This document shows positions 3,182 to 34,025 of a stretch of 44,089 bases of DNA, one piece after another. Origin of the DNA: Candidatus Nitrosopumilus sp. (GTDB lineage Archaea; Thermoproteota; Nitrososphaeria; Nitrososphaerales; Nitrosopumilaceae); contig JAOTTS010000018.1 in NCBI GenBank assembly GCA_029864335.1, positions 1 through 44,089 on the forward strand. The letters are read 5' to 3'. A program made the translations under genes and the position numbers. Numbering within the stretch: position 1 is the first letter of the stretch; the number at the start of each line of letters is the position of its first letter. The notes beneath the pieces are model-generated. The model searched no databases. It worked only from the letters and a program-made list of their open reading frames with translations, and was not told where the DNA came from.

Positions 3182-3196
3182 TTGTTAACAAGGATA
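3182..3196. promoter_or_regulatory. Palindromic promoter element, TTGTTAACAAGGATA type
   Basis: TTGTTAACAA is followed by GGATAACACAGAG, then a TATA-like CCTATAAGG, then ATG at 3234. It resembles the TTAACAnTGTTAA elements at 28-33 kb and shares GTTAACAAnGnTAnCACAGAG with the copy at 4054. The spacing to the start codon (about 38 bp) matches the other copies. Confidence 0.4.
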
Positions 3197-3233
3197 ACAC
3201 AGAGCCTATAAGGAACGAATCATTACATTAATC

Positions 3234-3759: not shown

Positions 3760-4590
3760 TTTTTCACTAGAAATATCTACATATCCTCACCACACTCTCC
3801 ATCTCTGCGAACATTCTGATTGAATCTCCTTTGAAATACGAATCCTCTCTTGCTAGGGTCTGGTCTTTGAATGTCAGAATAGGTCTTTGGTTTGGGAAGT
3901 AAGATGGTGGAAATATTTTTCTTTGGTTTCTTTGTTGGTGGCAAATAAGATTTGAATTGTTTTTTGTTTTATGAGAAGTGTTTAGAAAAAAGAAAGCAAA
4001 ATCACACATTGAATCATATAGACATTAAGATGCCCCTACAAATTGTTACAAAAGTTAACAATGTTATCACAGAGACCATTCCAAAGAATTTCTAAGTTCG
4101 ATCAAGAACAAGAGCTGACGTATCCATATATTCTCCCCTAATGTAATGAGAACGTGCAGTTCTTTGTTCCTATTTGAAGAAAAAATTTCCGGTAATCTAA
4201 TTGATACAACTTAACTTTTGGTTCGATCTGAGTCAAGAAATTCTGCAAATTAAAATGCAACTTGGATAATAAAGAACAATGACCGCATAGATTGGAATTA
4301 TAATGATTGATGGAATAATTAAGGGACACAAGATAGGAATGCAGAAGATTACAAAAATATCAAAAGATAGTAAAGTGGAATTAGACTCTAAGGCCATTAA
4401 GAGTCTGATGATGGATTTCAAACATACAATCCACCTGTTAATTATTATTCGGAAAGGAATCCTCTTGGAATCCAATGATCCCAAGGCTATGGGAAATTTA
4501 CTTGAAATGGAATCTATTCCCCAATCCTCAGAGTCTACTAAAGCGAGACGAAAGTATTAAACCAACAGTAGAAACAATTTTTGATGCATA
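3760..4590. other. Gene-poor stretch with decayed sequence
   Basis: No convincing gene. It holds a TTTTATGAGAAGTGTT repeat (about 3968-3985) related to 2625-2640, a palindrome-like element at 4054-4068, and recurring GGTTCGATCT-type strings (about 4219 and 4738). The longest open frame (4303-4560, plus) lacks recognisable features and could be a shadow. Confidence 0.4.
4054..4068. promoter_or_regulatory. GTTAACAATGTTATC element
   Basis: A near-palindrome of the TTAACAnTGTTAA type, followed by ACAGAG as in the copy at 3182. No gene start lies at the usual distance downstream, so this copy may be orphaned in decayed DNA. Confidence 0.3.
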
Positions 4591-5958: not shown

Positions 5959-6487
5959 GTTTTTTGCATAGTATGATGATCATAATTTGGGAGTTCGTTT
6001 TATTAATTTTAAGTAAATCAAATTTCATTTAAGATTTCAAAGGGTCTTTGTATTCTCTATTTGAGCAAGAGAGTCAAAGTCCTGGATTTTGAAATATTCC
6101 AGAAACTTTCCGAGATGATGAAGATAGATCTTTCTGATCTGAGGCGGTTTTATTGAATTTAAGCAACAGCATGCTTCTTTGCATATTCTTTTTAAGAAAT
6201 AAGTGTCTTATAACCATAGATTCCATTGCTTGAAAAACAATTCAAGAGTCATAAAGTCTGGTTTGAATAAGAATAATCTACAGCTAAACAAACCGCTCAA
6301 GGATCCGTTAAATCTCAAAGTCACACAGTCAAAGCCTTGCGAGAGATTACAATTAGGATAAAGGATCAGGACTAGGATTTCCAAACAGTAGCCGAGAACT
6401 CCGGATTGAGAGTGGATGAGAAGACATCTAAAATAATCCAGCATCATATTATCATAGAGCGGAATCGCAAGAAATTCTCAAGGCAAC
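5959..6487. other. Gene-poor stretch
   Basis: No gene I can support. On the plus strand around 6280-6510 a frame reads protein-like (TVKALREITIRIKDQD, stop, DFQTVAENSGLRVDEKTS), which may be another decayed gene. The minus-strand frame over 6208-6447 looks like a shadow. Confidence 0.35.
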
Positions 6488-8510: not shown

Positions 8511-9452
8511 ATGAAAATTTTAGATGTAATCAAAGGGAAATTTTTGTGGATTATTCTTGGAACCACATTTTTCTATGTTCTATTAATTTTAGTATCAGAT
8601 GTTGAAAAGATATCTGAGTATTTTCTGCAAATTAGAGTGGAGTTTCTATTTTTGATATTTGTCCTCGGGTTTTTAGCTCATGTGATCAAAAGCTTTCGCC
8701 AAAGGGACATGACCAGTGAAAGGCCTGACATGTAGATTATCATATTTTGAGTTAATGGAATATTTTCCTCTAGCATTCCAAGCAGCACTCATGGAAGCAT
8801 AGGCACTTTCATCAAGTCGATTTATTTAAAAAAAATATTCAACATACCTACTGAGAAATCAATTGCCGTTATTTTTCTTGAAAGATACCATGATTTACTT
8901 GCAGGAACATCCATAATTCTCATCACTCTGTCAATTCACTTTGGTTTGGTATCCGTATCCTTAATTGTTATTTCGTCAATTCTGCTTGGATGTCTATATC
9001 TTGTAATTAAAAGTCAGAAAATTTCCTTGGCATTTTATTCCAAAATCCTAAAAATAAATTTTATATCAAAAAATTTTCCAAACATCGGACCTAGTGAATC
9101 CTTTTCAATTTTAACAAAACTCAAAAACATGACCCGTGGATGGCTACTCAGTATTTTAGGCTGGAGTGTGGATTCTTTTGCAGTTTATGTGGTTTTTCTC
9201 GCGTTAAATATCGACTTGGGATACCTTTTGACCTCTCAAATTTATCTTACATCGTTAGGCTATGGCATCTTGTCTCTTTTGCCAGGTGGTATAGGGGTCA
9301 GTGAAGGGGTTGCAGATTTTCTCTTGGTAAGGCAAGGATTGGATCTTTCTGTTGCATCCTCACTTGTAATACTTATGAGATTGTCTACTCTGTGGTTTGC
9401 TACAATCACAGGGATTATTTTTACTCGTATTGTGTTGAAACAAAAAATTTAA
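8511..9452 (+). pseudogene. Broken flippase-like membrane protein (UPF0104 / LPG synthase TM-like)
   Basis: The first part (MKILDVIKGKFLWIILGTTF...) encodes two membrane helices up to HVIKSFRQR and then goes out of frame, stopping at 8733-8735. From about 8770 another frame resumes with the family's middle (PSSTHGSIGTFIKS, then FLERYHDLLAG) and runs intact to the end, including the C-terminal LLPGGIGVSEGVADFLL motif. The lesion lies between about 8697 and 8765 and looks like a small deletion plus frameshift. Intact homologues are polytopic and about 310-330 residues long, and are thought to act in lipid or glycolipid transfer. Confidence 0.65.
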
Positions 9453-27905: not shown

Positions 27906-28334
27906 CTAACTTTGAATTAATAGTGATGATTTATCATGAGTCTTTGATTCCAGAACTTGCACATCGACCTGTTTTAAAATTTCAAGTATCTCAAATGGAA
28001 TTTTGTTCAAATCAAAGTCTTTTTCAGCAGAGACATACACCGTTTCATTTCCTAATGGAAACTCCATTGTGATTACGTTTTTTCGGTAATATATGGAAAA
28101 ATTCATCGGTCCAAGAGAGAAGTCAAACTCCAGCAACATTCTTGTGCGCATAGCAGCTTCCATGAACAGCATCTCACGATCCCTCTCATCGACATAAAAC
28201 TGGATGTTATCTTTGGCTGCTCCCGTGATCAGGCGTCCGTTATCGTTTATGATTCCTGCAAATCTGATGTTACCATTAACGTCTCTGATTTTTTTGCACA
28301 GTTCCTTGTAAGGGAATTGAGCTGTTTGCATCAT
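27906..28334 (-). CDS. Thaumarchaeal family protein (DUF6659-like), intact copy
   Basis: About 142 residues from ATG 28332-28334: FPYKELCKKIRDVNGNIRFA, then GIINDNGRLITGAAKDNIQF, REMLFMEAAMRTRMLLEFDF, and the C-terminal IPFEILEILKQV. The order (helix, IRFxGIIN-xxGRL strand pair, long helix, four strands, helix) is shared with the broken genes at 32978-33433 and 41932-42310. The fold looks Roadblock/profilin-like, and I believe the family is DUF6659, from memory only. The start follows the stop of the upstream gene by 2 bases, so they form an operon. A longer frame upstream (to 28427) overlaps that gene and is unlikely. Confidence 0.65.
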   Translation of the reverse strand: MMQTAQFPYKELCKKIRDVNGNIRFAGIINDNGRLITGAAKDNIQFYVDERDREMLFMEAAMRTRMLLEFDFSLGPMNFSIYYRKNVITMEFPLGNETVYVSAEKDFDLNKIPFEILEILKQVDVQVLESKTHDKSSLLIQS

Positions 28335-28336
28335 TT

Positions 28337-28804
28337 CTATTTTGCACCTTTCACTTGAGTTCTCTGAAGAAACTCTGACCATGATTTTGCATACGTGTTT
28401 ACACATGCATGCTGATATTTGTCCCAAGAATCAATTTGTGACAGCTTGAACTGAATGTACATTTTTACGAAATTAGCGTATAGATCAATCTGAGATTCAA
28501 AAATATTTGCTGTAGAATTTAGGTAACCATCATAAACATTTAGAGTGTTTTGATCAACTTCCATTTTATCAAAATATTGCTTTTCAACCAAACTGCACGT
28601 TCCAAAAATGTCCTGTATCGAATGCAAGTACCTTGTGTACAAATCAGAATATTCTTGAAAGAGAGAAGGTATTTCAGACTCTAGCTTTTGTATTACATTT
28701 AATGTGCTGTCCTTCATAACTCCACAAACAGATTTTTTTTGGGATTCGCTATTTTTCTTAATTACATGTACTTGACTTGAATTTTCGTTAATTGTTTTTT
28801 CCAT
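28337..28804 (-). CDS. Helical coiled-coil protein, phasin-like in appearance (155 aa)
   Basis: After a polar leader (MEKTINENSSQVHVIKKNSE) the protein is one run of amphipathic helices (IQKLESEIPSLFQEYSDLYT; FESQIDLYANFVKMYIQFKL). Such long, aromatic-dotted helices resemble phasins or PHA-synthase PhaE-like accessory proteins, and some relatives of this archaeon make polyhydroxyalkanoate. There is no sequence motif to prove it. It is first gene of a two-gene operon under the palindrome at 28838-28854. Confidence 0.55.
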   Translation of the reverse strand: MEKTINENSSQVHVIKKNSESQKKSVCGVMKDSTLNVIQKLESEIPSLFQEYSDLYTRYLHSIQDIFGTCSLVEKQYFDKMEVDQNTLNVYDGYLNSTANIFESQIDLYANFVKMYIQFKLSQIDSWDKYQHACVNTYAKSWSEFLQRTQVKGAK

Positions 28805-28837: not shown

Positions 28838-28854
28838 GATTAACATAGTTAATC
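28838..28854. promoter_or_regulatory. Palindromic element between divergent genes (GATTAAC-ATA-GTTAATC)
   Basis: A 17-bp inverted repeat lies between the helical-protein operon (start 28804, minus) and the C2H2 gene (start 28891, plus), about 35 bp from both starts. TATA-like boxes lie on each side (CCTTATATCC toward plus; GGTTATTAGC toward minus), so one bound factor could control both. Confidence 0.65.
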
Positions 28855-28890
28855 CATCCTTATATCCTGATTTTGGCATACTATACCAAT

Positions 28891-29178
28891 ATGAAAAATC
28901 CGTTTAGTAAAAGGAACAATTGTACACAGTGTGAATCAAAATTCTCAAACCATGATGATTTGGTAGTTCATGTAAGACACGAACATCATAAAACCATTCT
29001 AAAATGTGAGAAATGTGGTGCAGAATTCATTCATGAAAAAGATAGACTCCACCACGCAAGAAAGGAACGCGAGGAGGAGTTGCGAGAAAGATCCCACAGG
29101 GATTCATATCCGGAAGAATCTGGAAATACACAAGACAGGGTAACTAGGCATACCAGTCATTTTGATGACAAGTTATAG
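28891..29178 (+). CDS. Two-finger C2H2 zinc-finger protein (95 aa)
   Basis: Finger 1: CTQCESKFSNHDDLVVHVRH then EHH (C-x2-C-x12-H-x3-H-type). Finger 2: CEKCGAEFIHEKDRLHHARK, with a His pair that is less regular. An acidic/basic tail follows (REEELRERSHRDSYPEESGN). I start at ATG 28891 because TATATCC at about 28860-28867 is about 25 bases upstream; the in-frame TTG at 28873 would lie too close to it. Probable DNA- or RNA-binding protein. It shares its regulatory palindrome with the divergent operon. Confidence 0.75.
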   Translation: MKNPFSKRNNCTQCESKFSNHDDLVVHVRHEHHKTILKCEKCGAEFIHEKDRLHHARKEREEELRERSHRDSYPEESGNTQDRVTRHTSHFDDKL

Positions 29179-29241
29179 TTTAGTAAGAATTTTTGGAACT
29201 AGTTCAATCCATTAAAAAAATTATTTGTTTAGAATTTCACA

Positions 29242-29780
29242 CTAAAAATTAATTATCCCTTCAGACCACCACTTTGGATTATTATGAATCCAATCTGGAA
29301 TAAAGACGGGTTCATTAATTTTCTTGAGGTTTTCCTCTACTTTTTCTGGGTAAAACGTAACCTTAAACTCTCCACCATTTATCGTACCATACACGTCAAT
29401 TTTTGTCCTACCTGGCTCTTGCGGTGTGAATTCTCCATAGTATATTCCTGGAATTTCAGGATCTTCATTCAAAGTCTTTTCTTCATCTCTAATCTTGACG
29501 TATACCTCCAAGTCATCTGCAATACCTGTAATGTCACTTTCACTTGCAGGAGAAGACGACTCAAAGTATACCACATCAGATCTTTGCTTGTCAAAGTCAC
29601 TTGCAACGGTAATGACTACTATGGCATTTGGTTCATTAGCATTGGAGGTTCTGTCTTCCATCCGACATCGACTTTGTAGTCCCCTACAATCTGGGCTTTG
29701 TGTGCATATATTGGAATAATTTCAATCATTATCACGTTAATTGTAAATACCAATAATACAATTGCAAAAATTTTTCATAA
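29242..29780 (-). pseudogene. Exported protein with two frameshifts
   Basis: Three frames make one protein. ATG at about 29778-29780 gives MKN then shifts within an A5T5 tract. The next frame gives a signal-peptide core (IFAIVLLVFTINVIMIEIIP) and AHKAQIVGDYKVDVGWKTEP. A second shift near 29640-29665 leads to NEPNAIVVITVASDFDKQRS and on to the end (FIPDWIHNNPKWWSEGIINF). The VGDYxxxVGWxxEPP block is a recurrent feature of exported thaumarchaeal proteins with Ig-like domains. Both lesions are 1-2 base events. Confidence 0.5.
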
Positions 29781-29887
29781 ATCTCATTTGTTTATTATAG
29801 TCAAAATTCTTAGAAAAGGCGTTTGGCACAAGAGTAGAATTTAAGTTCATTGTCTGAAATTTCATGCTGCAGATCAAATCTATGAAA

Positions 29888-30370
29888 TTAGTTTTCAGGA
29901 TGGAATATTCCACTTCCAAAAATATATTCGTCATGTTTTTTTATCCATGCTGACTCTGGTAGGAGTTTCTTATTTACGGGATCTTCTGAAACATATTCTA
30001 TCCACGTTCCATCATCAGTTGCTAAATTATGAATAATTTCTTCAATGTTTTTTCCATCGATTTCAATAATTGCATCTATATTTTTTCCAATTAATGATTT
30101 ATCCTCACCATGTGCTACTACAACCCCATCGCTATCTCTAATTACATATACGTAGAGTTCCATCCCGTGGAATTCAGGATCAACATCAATCCTTGGGAAT
30201 GATTCTGTACCTATGTCATCATAAAGATCTATCGCGTCATTTACAAGACTAACTGCCATATCAGGAGTCTCTGAAAAACTATCCACAGGTTTAAGCTCGA
30301 TGACTCCTGCAACAATTATTAAAATTACGATAGCGGTAAGAGATATTCCAAAAAACATTAACTTTTTCAT
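29888..30370 (-). CDS. Stand-alone Cache-domain sensor, membrane anchored
   Basis: 160 residues: a signal anchor (FFGISLTAIVILIIVAGVIE) followed by one extracytoplasmic Cache-type domain with LYVYVIRDSDGVVVAHGEDK, SLIGKNIDAI and DGTWIEYVSEDPVNKKLLPE, ending YIFGSGIFHPEN. Cache domains bind small ligands outside the cell, normally fused to kinases or chemoreceptors; here there is no output domain. It may be exported as a binding protein or act with a partner. It lies just downstream of the C2H2 gene at 30389 on the same strand (18 bases), so the two are likely co-transcribed. Confidence 0.75.
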   Translation of the reverse strand: MKKLMFFGISLTAIVILIIVAGVIELKPVDSFSETPDMAVSLVNDAIDLYDDIGTESFPRIDVDPEFHGMELYVYVIRDSDGVVVAHGEDKSLIGKNIDAIIEIDGKNIEEIIHNLATDDGTWIEYVSEDPVNKKLLPESAWIKKHDEYIFGSGIFHPEN

Positions 30371-30388
30371 AATACTCAGTTCATTCCT

Positions 30389-30553
30389 TTATTTTTCACG
30401 CTTTGGTTTTGAATGTGCTTTTATCATATGTTTTTTTGTTCTTTCTGGATCAGTAAATGCCATATTGCAAATTCTACATGTGTTTGAAAAGACAGTTTCT
30501 CTCTTTAGAATATTTTTTACCATATTCCTATTGAAAGGTAAATTTGTTTTCAT
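30389..30553 (-). CDS. Single C2H2 zinc-finger protein (54 aa)
   Basis: A complete classical finger lies in the second half: CRICNMAFTDPERTKKHMIK then AH (C-x2-C-x12-H-x4-H), with basic flanks (MKTNLPFNRNMVKNILKRET; SKPKREK). It starts at ATG 30551-30553 behind a TATA-like CTTATAATG and the palindrome at 30589-30601. Likely a small DNA/RNA-binding protein. It is divergent from the winged-helix gene. Confidence 0.75.
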   Translation of the reverse strand: MKTNLPFNRNMVKNILKRETVFSNTCRICNMAFTDPERTKKHMIKAHSKPKREK

Positions 30554-30588
30554 ATCAAAATTAATCATTCAACATTATAAGGCGTTGC

Positions 30589-30601
30589 TTAACATTGTTA
30601 A
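30589..30601. promoter_or_regulatory. TTAACATTGTTAA palindrome, divergent promoter
   Basis: A near-perfect 13-bp palindrome lies 36 bp from the C2H2 start (minus) and 52 bp from the winged-helix start (plus). It sits just upstream of the minus-strand TATA box. Being in front of a regulator gene makes that regulator a candidate binder. Confidence 0.65.
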
Positions 30602-30652
30602 TTACACAGATTTACAACAATAGTTAAAGTCCCATTAATACTATCGTCAACA

Positions 30653-30988
30653 TTGGCAGAATCTAAAAAATACAGAGATAGAATTTACATTGTAAAAGAC
30701 ATCATTCTTACTCTTTCAGAATATGGCGAGCTGAATCAAACTTCCTTGTTTAGTTTTTGCGGATTAAATATTACCAAACACAAAGAGATTCTGGATAATT
30801 TAGAACAAAATGACATTATACAAAGAATAGAGACTGTTGAAGGAAAAAGAACCATAACAATTTTTAAAGTTACTCATAAAGGAATGAATTTTTGTCATGA
30901 GATACTAGAGCCATATGAGCAATTGTTCCCAAGGGGTGGAAAATCTTCACATTCTTCAGTAAATCTTGGATGTTTATTCTTTGTCTAA
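30653..30988 (+). CDS. Winged-helix transcriptional regulator (111 aa)
   Basis: TTG start. YRDRIYIVKDIILTLSEYGE, then LNQTSLFSFCGLNITKHKEI with recognition helix, and LDNLEQNDIIQRIETVEGKR with ITIFKVTHKGMNFC as the wing. This is the archaeal wHTH pattern of thaumarchaeal 'predicted transcriptional regulators'. There is no ligand domain. The last 15 residues (GKSSHSSVNLGCLFFV) overlap the convergent membrane gene and look less conserved. It is the only classical regulator in the palindrome-rich region, so it could be the factor that reads it. Confidence 0.75.
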   Translation: MAESKKYRDRIYIVKDIILTLSEYGELNQTSLFSFCGLNITKHKEILDNLEQNDIIQRIETVEGKRTITIFKVTHKGMNFCHEILEPYEQLFPRGGKSSHSSVNLGCLFFV

Positions 30989-31339
30989 ATGAAATTTAGA
31001 TGTGATGTCCTTATCCAAATCCTCACGTTTCTTCATATAATTGTTGTATCTTTTATTCCATGTACTAAGAGATCTAAATTGTTGCACTCCTGCAACTAAC
31101 CAAATTCCAGAAGTGACCAAAACGGCAGTCAGTAAAACAGTCAATAATATTGCAAATTCAGCCTCATTTTCTACCAAATGAAGGAATTTTGGGTGTGTCA
31201 GCAGGTATAGTGATATTCCTATTGCAAGGGGGGCCAAAATAAGTGCAGAGAATGAAACTCCCAACATCAATCCCTTTAGTTGCTGAATTTTTTCAATGAA
31301 AAGATCCATTGAACTTAAGATGTTATTGTTATCTGACAA
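30974..31339 (-). CDS. Two-helix membrane protein (121 aa)
   Basis: A cytosolic N-terminal helix (MDLFIEKIQQLKGLMLGVSF), two membrane segments (about 30-48, ALILAPLAIGISLYLL; about 63-85, FAILLTVLLTAVLVTSGIWL) and a charged C-terminal helix (WNKRYNNYMKKREDLDKDI). It may be a membrane scaffold. It overlaps the winged-helix gene tail-to-tail by 15 bases. Family not recognised. Confidence 0.6.
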   Translation of the reverse strand: MSDNNNILSSMDLFIEKIQQLKGLMLGVSFSALILAPLAIGISLYLLTHPKFLHLVENEAEFAILLTVLLTAVLVTSGIWLVAGVQQFRSLSTWNKRYNNYMKKREDLDKDITSKFHLDKE

Positions 31340-31468
31340 ATTCTTCCTCTCTCATATTTAGAAAATTTTGTTTTATGTGTTTTAAATTTATCATGATTAA
31401 TGAGAGTGTAAATCTTTCAAATAACCTCATTTCTAATATATTATCTATTTGTAGTATATAGCGAATAC

Positions 31469-31481
31469 TTAACAATGTTAA
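31469..31481. promoter_or_regulatory. TTAACAATGTTAA palindrome
   Basis: A 13-bp palindrome 35 bp before the start of the miniprotein at 31516, with TATA-like CTTATTAAAAA between them. The arrangement matches the other copies. Confidence 0.65.
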
Positions 31482-31515
31482 TTCAGTCTTATTAAAAATT
31501 AAACTAACTACAATT

Positions 31516-31617
31516 ATGAAGAAAAAAGTAGATGAAGACGATGATAATTTGGATAAAAGAAATGAAGATTGGTGGAGATTAGAAAAGTTTGAGATAGGAC
31601 GGAGGAGATTTTGTTAA
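31516..31617 (+). CDS. Charged miniprotein (33 aa), leader of a zinc-protein operon
   Basis: MKKKVDEDDDNLDKRNEDWW followed by RLEKFEIGRRRFC. It is highly charged with a single terminal Cys. It lies at the standard distance behind the palindrome and TATA and ends 2 bases before the ATG of the zinc-ribbon gene, so the two form an operon. Function unknown. Confidence 0.45.
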   Translation: MKKKVDEDDDNLDKRNEDWWRLEKFEIGRRRFC

Positions 31618-31619
31618 AT

Positions 31620-31811
31620 ATGACCTTTTGTTGTAAGGGAATATGCGATGACTTGGAGATAACCACAGTTTCAAATTCTCTACGTTATCAAGTAGGACAG
31701 AAAAGATGTACAATGTGTTCGATTTTTGTTGAAACAGAAAATCTAAAATGTCCTTGCTGTGGTGTACGTCTTAGAACTAAATCAAGAAATAGAAAACATG
31801 CAGTGAAATGA
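31620..31811 (+). CDS. Zinc-ribbon protein (63 aa)
   Basis: MTFCCKGICDDLEITTVSNS, then YQVGQKRCTMCSIFVETENL and KCPCCGVRLRTKSRNRK. It has CCxxxC near the start, then CxxC and CxCC pairs, making at least one zinc site, and ends in a basic tail. This type of small protein recurs in ammonia-oxidising archaea. ATG 31620 is preferred over the TTG at 31611. Probable nucleic-acid-binding or transcription-associated protein. Confidence 0.75.
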   Translation: MTFCCKGICDDLEITTVSNSLRYQVGQKRCTMCSIFVETENLKCPCCGVRLRTKSRNRKHAVK

Positions 31812-31819
31812 TTATTCCA

Positions 31820-31832
31820 GTAACATTGTTAA
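31820..31832. promoter_or_regulatory. GTAACATTGTTAA palindrome with a downstream conserved box
   Basis: A palindrome followed by GCATTATCTAAATAG. The copy at 32583 has the same palindrome followed by GGATTATCTAAATAG, so TGTTAAGnATTATCTAAATAG is shared over 21 positions. It lies 37 bp before the ATG at 31869. Confidence 0.6.
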
Positions 31833-31868
31833 GCATTATCTAAATAGCAATCTATCAATTAATGATTA

Positions 31869-31964
31869 ATGCAGAAGCAATTACTCCAAATGGGAAATAA
31901 TAATTGTACTGCAATCCTAGATACATGTACTAGTTTTGATTTTATGCCTCAAGACACATGGTAA
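31869..31964 (+). CDS. Possible miniprotein (31 aa) behind the palindrome
   Basis: MQKQLLQMGNNNCTAILDTC followed by TSFDFMPQDTW. It has two cysteines and is otherwise polar. Support comes only from its position relative to the palindrome/TATA unit. A second ATG at 31862 gives a 12-codon frame instead, and a non-coding transcript is also possible. Confidence 0.3.
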   Translation: MQKQLLQMGNNNCTAILDTCTSFDFMPQDTW

Positions 31965-32014
31965 AAAGTCCCAACTTGCTTCTGCATTATACTTTTAATT
32001 TCAATTTGAAGTAT

Positions 32015-32170
32015 CTAATCATCACTTCTAAAAGACCATTTTAATTCGCCACTATTTTTGACAAATTCTTCTGGTCGAAGTTTGTTGTGATCACTTTTGA
32101 TATGAGACATGTAAGTTTCAAGTGAAATAAAGTCTTGTTTGCAGATGGGACATATCTTACTAAAAGTCAT
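32015..32170 (-). CDS. C2H2-type zinc-finger protein (51 aa)
   Basis: MTFSKICPICKQDFISLETY then MSHIKSDHNKLRPEEF: C-x2-C-x12-H-x4-H, a single classical finger, followed by an acidic/aromatic tail (NSGELKWSFRSDD). ATG at 32168-32170, 36 bp from the palindrome at 32206. It is the third small C2H2 gene with this promoter type in 4 kb. Confidence 0.72.
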   Translation of the reverse strand: MTFSKICPICKQDFISLETYMSHIKSDHNKLRPEEFVKNSGELKWSFRSDD

Positions 32171-32205
32171 AAAGAATATAGGAGAAAATCGTTTTTAGTG
32201 GTTCC

Positions 32206-32218
32206 TTAACAATGTTAA
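32206..32218. promoter_or_regulatory. TTAACAATGTTAA palindrome
   Basis: The same 13-mer as at 31469, here serving the minus-strand C2H2 gene starting at 32170. CACTAAAAACG lies between it and the start as the weak TATA candidate. Confidence 0.6.
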
Positions 32219-32310
32219 TTATTTGATATATGTACCAAAATTATTTCTCGACATTTAATACAAAAAGAAAAATTTAAGCAGGAACCGTTCCACTGTTCTT
32301 GCTTTTGTGA

Positions 32311-32496
32311 CTAGATGGTACCTCTTCCAGTAATTCTCGTCATTCCTTCCGTTGATACTCTTGGTCTTGGAATGTCTTCTAATCTGGAGGTGCGTATGCC
32401 TCTCCCCAGATGCACTGTAAGGTTTTTCTTGACTGATTCAAGACTGGTTTGTTGGAATTTTCTGTAAGCATCTCCTGCCCAGTTCTGTTCATCCAC
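32311..32496 (-). CDS. Small basic hypothetical protein, possibly truncated
   Basis: The frame opens with GTG at 32494-32496 (DEQNWAGDAYRKFQQTSLES, then RTSRLEDIPRPRVSTEGMTR). The same open frame extends about 19 codons upstream (RHIKNRGTASEESDV) without an ATG, up to a TAA, so the true N-terminus may be lost. Basic and Arg/Ser-rich. The codons look coding. Family not recognised. Confidence 0.4.
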   Translation of the reverse strand: MDEQNWAGDAYRKFQQTSLESVKKNLTVHLGRGIRTSRLEDIPRPRVSTEGMTRITGRGTI

Positions 32497-32582
32497 ATCA
32501 CTCTCTTCTGATGCGGTTCCGCGATTTTTGATATGTCGTATTTACATATCTGAACTAGGTATGCTTTTCTTTTAGGTGTGGA

Positions 32583-32595
32583 TAAACAATGTTAA
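32583..32595. promoter_or_regulatory. TAAACAATGTTAA palindrome with the conserved downstream box
   Basis: Followed by GGATTATCTAAATAG (see the copy at 31820) and the start ATG 38 bp later at 32633. Confidence 0.6.
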
Positions 32596-32632
32596 GGATT
32601 ATCTAAATAGAATTTTAGTGTAATACAGACAT

Positions 32633-32842
32633 ATGAAAACAACACAAACTATTAGAAAATACAATGATATAACAAAAGAAGAATTTATTGAAGCAACACA
32701 AGAAATACATGAAAGTGAAACCAAACCGATTAAAATAATAGGTGATGAAGGAGCACCAACAATTCGTGAAGTGATCAGCAACCAAAAAAGACTTGCAACC
32801 ATGATGGAGTATTTGATTCAAAAAACAGAGCAAAACATGTGA
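32633..32842 (+). CDS. Hypothetical protein (69 aa) behind the palindrome
   Basis: MKTTQTIRKYNDITKEEFIE, then SETKPIKIIGDEGAPTIREV and a C-terminal helix (ISNQKRLATMMEYLIQK). Soluble, alpha/beta, with no cysteines. A clean ATG gene with a well-formed promoter of the repeated type. Family not recognised. Confidence 0.6.
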   Translation: MKTTQTIRKYNDITKEEFIEATQEIHESETKPIKIIGDEGAPTIREVISNQKRLATMMEYLIQKTEQNM

Positions 32843-32865
32843 TTGTCAGAAAAATAACAAAATTA

Positions 32866-32973
32866 ATCAGTATTTCCTTTGTGGTTTTTTACTGCCAAAA
32901 TGTTTTCGGCATCTTGCCCCTCCTGCAAAATCAAGAGAGTCTCAAAATCATTTTTAGCAGATTCATTTTTCAT
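32866..32973 (-). CDS. Possible miniprotein (about 35 aa)
   Basis: ATG at 32971-32973 gives MKNESAKNDFETLLILQEGQ, then DAENILAVKN and a short end; my reading of the last few codons is uncertain. It starts 5 bases after the stop of the DUF6659-like gene on the same strand, so it would be the second gene of that operon. Confidence 0.3.
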
Positions 32974-32977
32974 GGGG

Positions 32978-33433
32978 TTATCTGGATTGTACAACTTTCT
33001 TTATTTTAGTATCCTGTTGACTTGTATGTTTATCTGAAAAAATGTCACACTCTCCAAATGAATGTGTCACATAGTCGACAATCTTTCTTACGTTTACAAT
33101 TCTTTCTGCAGATATCAGAAAATGATACTGCTGGTTTTTTAATGGTATGCTGATTATGACTACATTGTCCCGATAAGTCACAACATGGTTGATGCATCCC
33201 AGGTTTTCATCAAACTCTCCTTTCATAGATATCTCTAATCTTGATTGGATGTACAGCATCTGCCTTTGTTGATCATTGTCCAACGGTTGTATGGAATCCT
33301 TGAAGCTTCCTGCAACCAACCTTCCCATGGAATTTATGATGCCGCAAAACCTGATCTTTGGTTTGTCACATATAGACTAGCAAAGAGTGTCAAGAAAACT
33401 GAATTGCTCAAAAGTTGAAGGTGTTGCAGTCAT
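32978..33433 (-). pseudogene. DUF6659-like family protein with an early in-frame TAG
   Basis: ATG at 33431-33433 reads MTATPSTFEQFSFLDTLC, then TAG (33377-33379), then in the same frame SICDKPKIRFCGIINSMGRL, VAGSFKDSIQPLDNDQQRQM and on to ISAERIVNVRKIVDYVTHSF. Aligned by eye with the intact copy at 27906-28334, the stop replaces a residue in the first helix (probably Lys, AAG to TAG). Restart at ATG 33326-33328 (MGRLVAG) would lose the first strand. The promoter retains its palindrome (33474-33488). Confidence 0.6.
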
Positions 33434-33473
33434 GTGTTCACTATGCTTAGTTTGTTTTGAATATAATTAATTG

Positions 33474-33488
33474 CTGAACATTGTTCAG
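33474..33488. promoter_or_regulatory. CTGAACATTGTTCAG palindrome, divergent promoter
   Basis: A 15-bp variant of the repeated element with GAAC arms. It is 41 bp from the DUF6659-like start (minus; TATA-like TTATATTC between) and 36 bp from the miniprotein start at 33524 (plus; TATA-like GATTTTAAAG between). Confidence 0.6.
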
Positions 33489-33634: not shown

Positions 33635-33759
33635 ATCATTATTTCTTATTTTTAATCAGCAATAAAATCGCATTTGATACAAATATGTTGTAATAATTGA
33701 CGATGTAAAATAATTCATTATAACATAAAAATTATCCTTTCAACTATTCATGCATTCTA

Positions 33760-33860
33760 CTTCCACGTGGGTCTTTTTTCTATGGTCCTAACTATATCCC
33801 CAGCACAACATGTATGGGGGTGTATAAGGTTAAGGGGGTTATTCAAGACCCACGTGGAAG
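33760..33860. repeat. 101-bp element bounded by perfect 14-bp inverted repeats
   Basis: CTTCCACGTGGGTC (33760-33773) and GACCCACGTGGAAG (33847-33860) are perfect inverted copies. Inside each arm lies a G-rich/TATA-like block (minus: GGGGATATAGTTA at 33789-33801; plus: GGGGGTGTATAAGGTTAAGG at about 33816-33835). The single arm at 7681-7736 matches both. This is either a MITE-like element or a pair of divergent promoters whose transcripts begin with the same sequence. Confidence 0.55.
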
Positions 33861-34025
33861 TTTATCATGGAATATTTTATCTAAATTCAAAAAAAAGACT
33901 CTATTGAGAAATCATATTTACTGTTATTCTACAAGTGATTTTTCTTCTTCAAATTTTATTCTCAATGATTCATTTGTACGAATTAAAATGAAATCCAATC
34001 TATTTTCAATTATTGTATAATACAA

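Follow-up and report, generated by a model that had tools for sequence, protein, structure and literature searches.

The 13-base palindrome TTAACAWTGTTAA recurs at the promoters of a dense cluster of small genes in a 44,089-nucleotide stretch of Candidatus Nitrosopumilus sp. DNA (contig JAOTTS010000018.1, positions 1 to 44,089; hereafter the window), and, judged from sequence, it marks a real, conserved regulon of ammonia-oxidizing archaea. With moderate confidence, we read the palindrome as the operator of this small-gene regulon and the MarR-like winged-helix protein encoded at 30653 as its activator. The protein, presumably as a dimer, would most likely bind the palindrome just upstream of the transcription factor B (TFB) recognition element (BRE) and the TATA box, and would help TFB and the TATA-binding protein (TBP) onto the promoter. 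In this way it would turn on a dense group of small transcripts, most of them leaderless. The putative targets encode zinc-finger microproteins, a zinc-ribbon pair, a phasin-like protein, a DUF1059 protein, and a membrane cupredoxin that was not found in the host genome; one or more structured small RNAs would also belong to the set. The sequences show a conserved operator at a fixed spacing, a set of target genes, a covarying RNA fold, and a winged-helix gene linked to the cluster; binding, dimerisation, activation over repression, and the signal are what we infer.

Copies of the palindrome and their promoters

The genome that carries the window as contig 17 (the host genome) is 1.95 Mb long and 95.6% complete, and genome-wide motif counts were obtained by pattern searches. 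Among named organisms, sequence comparison placed Nitrosopumilus and Nitrosarchaeum closest to it. The host genome contains three exact copies of TTAACAWTGTTAA, all of them in the 30.6–32.2 kb part of the window (30589, 31469, and 32206). The copies at 28840, 31820, and 32583 each have one mismatch, and the copy at 33475 has two mismatches, yet is a perfect TGAACATTGTTCA. All seven sites that the initial annotation had placed at 28838–33474 are therefore present, and so are the TATA-like box and the start codon about 35 bp downstream that it had described. The 3.8 kb from 28.8 to 32.6 kb contain six copies with no more than one mismatch, against an expectation of 0.05 (Poisson P 3e-11). Matches with at most two mismatches number 18 in the window as opposed to 7.3 ± 2.5 in shuffled sequences, and 0 of 100 shuffles reached 18. 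Permutation of the half-site yields 60 palindromes of equal composition, of which TTAACA alone is present in the window. In view of the shuffle and permuted-palindrome controls, an origin of the copies by chance or through AT bias was rejected.

Across the genome, TTAACANTGTTAA with one mismatch allowed has 33 copies. The other one-mismatch copies are mostly located inside long open frames, with few exceptions at promoters, such as that of a DUF6659 gene on contig 31, so that the regulon in the host genome essentially corresponds to the window cluster. A genome-wide regulon in the host species was rejected for the same reason. The looser copies that had been annotated at ~3.2 and ~4.1 kb look like another element; their CACAGAG(CCTATA) flanks recur at a site on contig 45. 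The promoter-like element TTATCACAGAGCCTATA, which is distinct from the palindrome, is located at 3185–3215 and 4055–4085 of the window and at contig 45:31062.

The promoters are organized as palindrome, ~8 bp, TATA-like box, ~21 bp, and start codon. In 62 promoters that had been selected because their start lies at 35 bp, positions 8–13 after the palindrome are filled by TATA letters. In the different gene families, the start most often lies at 35 bp. The layout fits leaderless archaeal transcripts, with the centre of the palindrome near −41 from the presumed transcription start. The four bases preceding the TATA box are mixed and pyrimidine-rich. The operator is positioned directly upstream of BRE/TATA at a fixed distance, which is a feature of activator promoters of the TFB-RF1/EarA class.

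The arrangement is conserved in relatives. Syntenic clusters with exact copies recur in six genomes (G003, G014, G025, G030, G032, and G056), including other genera, with starts ~35 bp away. The palindrome is located upstream of the C2H2a orthologues in 20 of 20 loci (17 at 35 bp and three at 41 bp), of C2H2b in 9 of 9, of the phasin-like protein in 9 of 9 (27–35 bp), and 31–35 bp before the start in all 13 loci of P35, a 35-aa protein associated with a zinc ribbon. Orthologues of DUF1059 have it in 17 of 23 loci, and in the six loci without a site of their own the gene lies directly behind C2H2a. The membrane cupredoxin has it in 21 of 24 loci, three of them with two mismatches; one genome is counted twice among the DUF1059 and cupredoxin loci. 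The cupredoxin site is kept even at 30–37% protein identity, and reads TTAACCATGTTAA in Nitrososphaera. The cupredoxin matches Pfam Cupredoxin_1 slightly below the cut-off, and no match to it was found at E <= 0.001 in the 95.6% complete host genome, an empty result that alone shows little. Individual promoters of the window also have counterparts elsewhere: the bidirectional promoter at 28840 has close ones in G098 and G181, where TTAACATAGTTAA and a TTATAT box are again present, TTAACAATGTTAAGCAACKCMTTATAA-like promoters resembling that at 30589 recur across many genomes, and a DUF6659 relative in G056 (L054) is preceded by an exact palindrome. The regulon proposed in the initial annotation is supported on three counts: the copies are locally enriched, they keep a fixed place in the promoter, and at more than 20 loci they are conserved in front of orthologues.

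A putative structured RNA behind the 31820 site

The site at 31820 had been assigned to a miniprotein. Instead, its fold, covarying helices, and relatives indicate that 31867–31990 is most likely a structured small RNA of a family absent from Rfam. No Rfam family matched the RNA of the window or those of its relatives above threshold, and a known RNA family was rejected on this basis. The outer helix P1 is formed by the arms TAATGCAGAAGCAA (31867–31880) and TTGCTTCTGCATTA (31976–31989), and the fold has a z-score of −4.1. P1 is followed by the unpaired UUACUCCAAA on the 5' side, the inner helix P2, and a conserved loop. The RNAs of relatives share this plan, with a P1 of 9–13 bp, which L070 has in interrupted form, a 5' unpaired stretch of 9–10 nucleotides with (U)ACUCCAA, P2, an uneven 3' bulge, and a loop of 40–75 nucleotides containing CCUAGnUUUCAUUUnCUGCC. 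Type-B RNA (AUGUAGAAGUC...) is present alongside type A in L067, L193, and L194, and in a second cluster in L050. The type-B loci (L050:8895, L067:8846, L193:2660, and L194:448) have the arms TGTAGAAGTC/GACTTCTACA and the same architecture, and are located behind the palindrome.

Covariation was evaluated in 33 sequences, two of them antisense copies, and the counts are of sequences, not of independent events. In P1, pair 3 changes from C-G to U-A (four sequences), pair 6 from A-U to G-C (one), pair 7 from A-U to G-U (five), pair 9 from C-G to U-A or U-G (four), and pair 10 from A-U to C-G (four). It is mainly the type-B sequences and L079 that contribute the double changes of P1. P2, for which a helix search was combined with the GGAAA and UUUCC stretches as anchors, a less formal procedure than a covariance test, shows exchanges at two pairs (A-U/U-A/G-C at one, A-U/G-C at the other). 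RNAalifold applied to a plain MAFFT alignment of 17 type-A sequences, in which P2 was misaligned, recovered P1 only, with zero double changes. A covariance model built without the promoter gave 22 matches in 19 of 121 family genomes, representing three genera and usually found once per genome, and all sense matches have the palindrome (0–1 mismatch) 32–35 bp upstream.

It is improbable that the unit produces a leaderless micropeptide (MQKQ...) rather than, or besides, the RNA. The AUG does occupy the same 35–36 bp position as in coding genes, and 16 of 27 type-A sequences have the conserved box of the inner loop in a single reading frame (P 0.005, kinship ignored). However, type-B RNAs start with AUG-UAG or GUG-UAG and therefore cannot encode the type-A peptide, the length of the peptide ranges from 14 to 43 residues across sequences, the 3' arm of P1 is kept past the stop codon in many of them, and the pairs covary, G-U wobbles included. 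There is very little chance that the inverted arms are the terminal repeats of a small mobile element and form no RNA helix: arms of 9–16 bp enclosing about 100–133 bp are compatible with such an element, but the sequence is mostly single-copy within a genome, occupies the same cluster position in most loci, has its promoter at a fixed distance, and contains an inner helix that covaries. As a family absent from Rfam, the predicted RNA can be searched for in existing RNA-seq data.

The candidate regulator and the palindrome at the predicted replication origin

The winged-helix protein matches Pfam PF14947 (HTH_45) with 26.9 bits against a cut-off of 25.5 (E 4.8e-6). Its AlphaFold monomer model has a mean predicted local distance difference test score of 82 and its best PDB matches are MarR-family structures; among shorter proteins, it matches P. 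horikoshii 1ub9. A search of the winged-helix profile against solved structures by sequence found no relative. The residues LNQT..S.CGLN..KH of the helix-turn-helix region are nearly invariant across orthologues. Motif clusters occur only in genomes with a close orthologue of the gene (7 of 9 against 0 of 52, P 8e-8, to which physical linkage contributes). Furthermore, of 63 named Nitrososphaeria loci, 20 have TTAACNNNGTTAA no more than 150 bp before the gene, those of Nitrosocaldus (L080) and Nitrososphaeraceae among them, where 0.15 would be expected. Some of these species are closely related, and the P value treats them as more independent than they are. This protein is favoured as the first candidate binder, as the initial annotation had suggested, by linkage, by co-occurrence, and by the palindrome in front of distant orthologues, and we give it a somewhat better than even chance of binding the palindrome. 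It stays a candidate, because the palindrome is also conserved at predicted replication origins of genomes without the gene.

In relatives, many single exact copies of the palindrome lie at the predicted replication origin, in the region that separates cdc6 from a divergent gene, with a repeat (GCCTGGAGTGGAAATAAAGGGG) resembling the origin recognition box (ORB) at an equal distance on either side. An ORB followed by a near-constant gap and TTAACNNNGTTAA was found by pattern search in 60 of 200 genomes of the class, and the reversed control gave 0. The pattern is present in Nitrosopumilaceae and in another family of the same order. Examples are at L007:1471–1545, L052 about 9130–9195, L062 about 6190–6250, and contig 8:8714 of the host genome, the predicted origin of which (L007) reads TTCACAATGTTAA. 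A literature search, which was not exhaustive, found no description of this palindrome, either in work on origins or elsewhere. A single-copy open reading frame (ORF) is located beside the origin, divergent from cdc6, in 44 of 44 good family genomes. It has a weak winged-helix match (Penicillinase_R) below the Pfam cut-off, and its product is a possible origin-binding protein.

Several observations weigh against the 30653 protein as the activator acting through the palindrome. The palindrome is present at the origin of genomes in which the cluster winged-helix protein has no match at E 1e-15 (e.g. G002, G009, G012, G019, G027, and G041), and another factor can therefore probably bind it there. 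In genus g9 (L142, L144, L145, and L146), the winged-helix gene is not accompanied by the palindrome, and the cupredoxin promoters instead have a different one, GTAATCATTAC, ahead of the TATA box, as if the operator had switched. The spacing in the winged-helix gene's own promoter is mostly 49–53 bp, and its TATA box is unclear. Moreover, many MarR-family proteins are repressors. The protein might accordingly silence the small genes through the palindrome, in the manner typical of MarR, until a signal releases it; the MarR-like fold and a site in front of its own gene, in the stretch shared with a divergent neighbour, would agree with this, but the sites are placed upstream of BRE and TATA at a fixed spacing and not over the TATA box or the start site, and we judge repression rather unlikely. 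Archaeal repressors usually overlap the TATA box or start site, whereas activators sit upstream (PMC5937170). Because a fixed site just upstream of BRE/TATA is the position of archaeal activators, control by activation appears quite probable. The signal could, speculatively, be metal or redox status, as suggested by the cupredoxin and the many zinc-finger proteins among the targets.

An origin-associated protein, for example the product of the single-copy winged-helix ORF flanking the origin, could be the binder in place of the 30653 protein, with the regulon tied to replication or the cell cycle. The constant spacing of the palindrome from the ORB repeat, also in genomes devoid of the cluster winged-helix gene, and the conservation of the flanking ORF would be explained in this way, and there is a precedent in Orc1-2, a relative of Orc1 that is a global DNA-damage-responsive regulator (PMC9738581). 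Nevertheless, we consider such a binder unlikely. The origin palindrome of g9 is exact while its cupredoxin promoter carries another palindrome, and the two binders therefore differ in g9; in addition, the promoter clusters track the cluster winged-helix gene and not the universal origin-flanking one. It is doubtful that one factor or a related pair uses the palindrome both at the origin and at the regulon promoters, and so ties a programme of stress or dormancy to the state of replication. If the same factor did bind the origin copy, replication would be linked with gene control in these archaea.

Organization of the cluster and comparison with known regulators

The positions of the sites and genes are listed in the table. 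In the DUF6659 gene at 32978–33433 (minus strand), an in-frame TAG follows codon 18 and the conserved domain lies behind it; the gene is a pseudogene or contains a sequencing error. An inverted repeat, CTTCCACGTGGGTCTT ... AAGACCCACGTGGAAG, with arms ~70 bp apart, is located at about 33757–33862.

Table. Palindrome sites and genes of the cluster, and the ORF flanking the origin. Positions are those of the window unless a locus or contig is named.
Feature	Position	Strand	Remarks
DUF6659 protein	27906..28334	-	Downstream of phasin-like gene; Pfam PF20364, E 1.6e-13
Phasin-like helical protein	28337..28804	-	No Pfam match
Palindrome TTAACATAGTTAA	28840..28852	both	Phasin-like gene (-) start at 35 bp, C2H2c gene (+) start at 38 bp
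C2H2c zinc-finger protein, 95 aa	28891..29178	+	
C2H2a zinc-finger microprotein	30389..30553	-	
Exact palindrome	30589..30601	both	Between C2H2a gene (-) and winged-helix gene (+)
MarR-like winged-helix protein, 111 aa	30653..30988	+	Candidate regulator; Pfam HTH_45
Hydrophobic, membrane-like protein, 121 aa	30974..31339	-	Convergent neighbour of winged-helix gene in most loci
Exact palindrome	31469..31481	+	P35/zinc-ribbon promoter
P35-type charged microprotein	31516..31617	+	13 loci
Zinc-ribbon microprotein	31620..31811	+	Downstream of P35
Palindrome with one mismatch, GTAACATTGTTAA	31820..31832	+	Putative small-RNA promoter, TATA box TCTAAATA
Putative structured small-RNA gene	31867..31990	+	Fold z-score, covariation, same plan in relatives
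C2H2b zinc-finger microprotein	32015..32170	-	
Exact palindrome	32206..32218	both	C2H2b gene (-); + side resembles cupredoxin promoter of relatives
Palindrome with one mismatch	32583..32595	+	Promoter of 69-aa gene, start 37 bp away
69-aa protein	32633..32842	+	No Pfam match
Variant palindrome TGAACATTGTTCA	33475..33487	both	Between DUF6659 gene (-) and 36-aa ORF (+)
Origin-flanking ORF	L062:6409-6792, L031:1688-2080, host genome contig 8:8136-8519		

Few operator-regulator pairs have been defined for ammonia-oxidizing archaea, and the cluster offers a predicted operator, its spacing, a target list, and a candidate binder. Archaeal activators at such sites recruit TFB or TBP. The closest parallel discussed here is TFB-RF1 (PF1088) of Pyrococcus and other Thermococcales, which activates from the 13-nucleotide palindrome TCTGAANTTCAGA, placed upstream of a weak BRE at a distance that is conserved (PMC5937170). 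The two systems share a palindrome of 13 nucleotides with one variable centre base, its conserved distance just upstream of BRE/TATA, a small regulon to which the locus of the regulator itself belongs, and comparative conservation. However, the palindromes differ (TCTGAANTTCAGA and TTAACAWTGTTAA), and the archaeal cluster described here is not the TFB-RF1 regulon proper. The targets of TFB-RF1 are a transporter and its own operon, whereas those of the cluster are microproteins and an RNA, and activation is proven for TFB-RF1 but deduced for the palindrome of ammonia-oxidizing archaea. EarA of Methanococcus also has activator sites immediately upstream of BRE (PMC5512572), but these are four 6-bp sites at one promoter, and its target genes are different.

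Among ammonia-oxidizing archaea themselves, the copper-limitation motifs of N. viennensis (PMC7785015) are similar in being shared promoter motifs near copper genes. Their sequences, TTCSGSMTTTGWACYANT and RATTTAAABATAGATTTAAATAATAAS, do not resemble the palindrome, and its identity with a published N. viennensis motif was rejected as the sequences differ. The zinc-finger microproteins of Haloferax and Halobacterium (PMC6562870, PMC2253796) are likewise small zinc-finger regulators or stress factors of archaea, described in abstracts that mention no shared operator.

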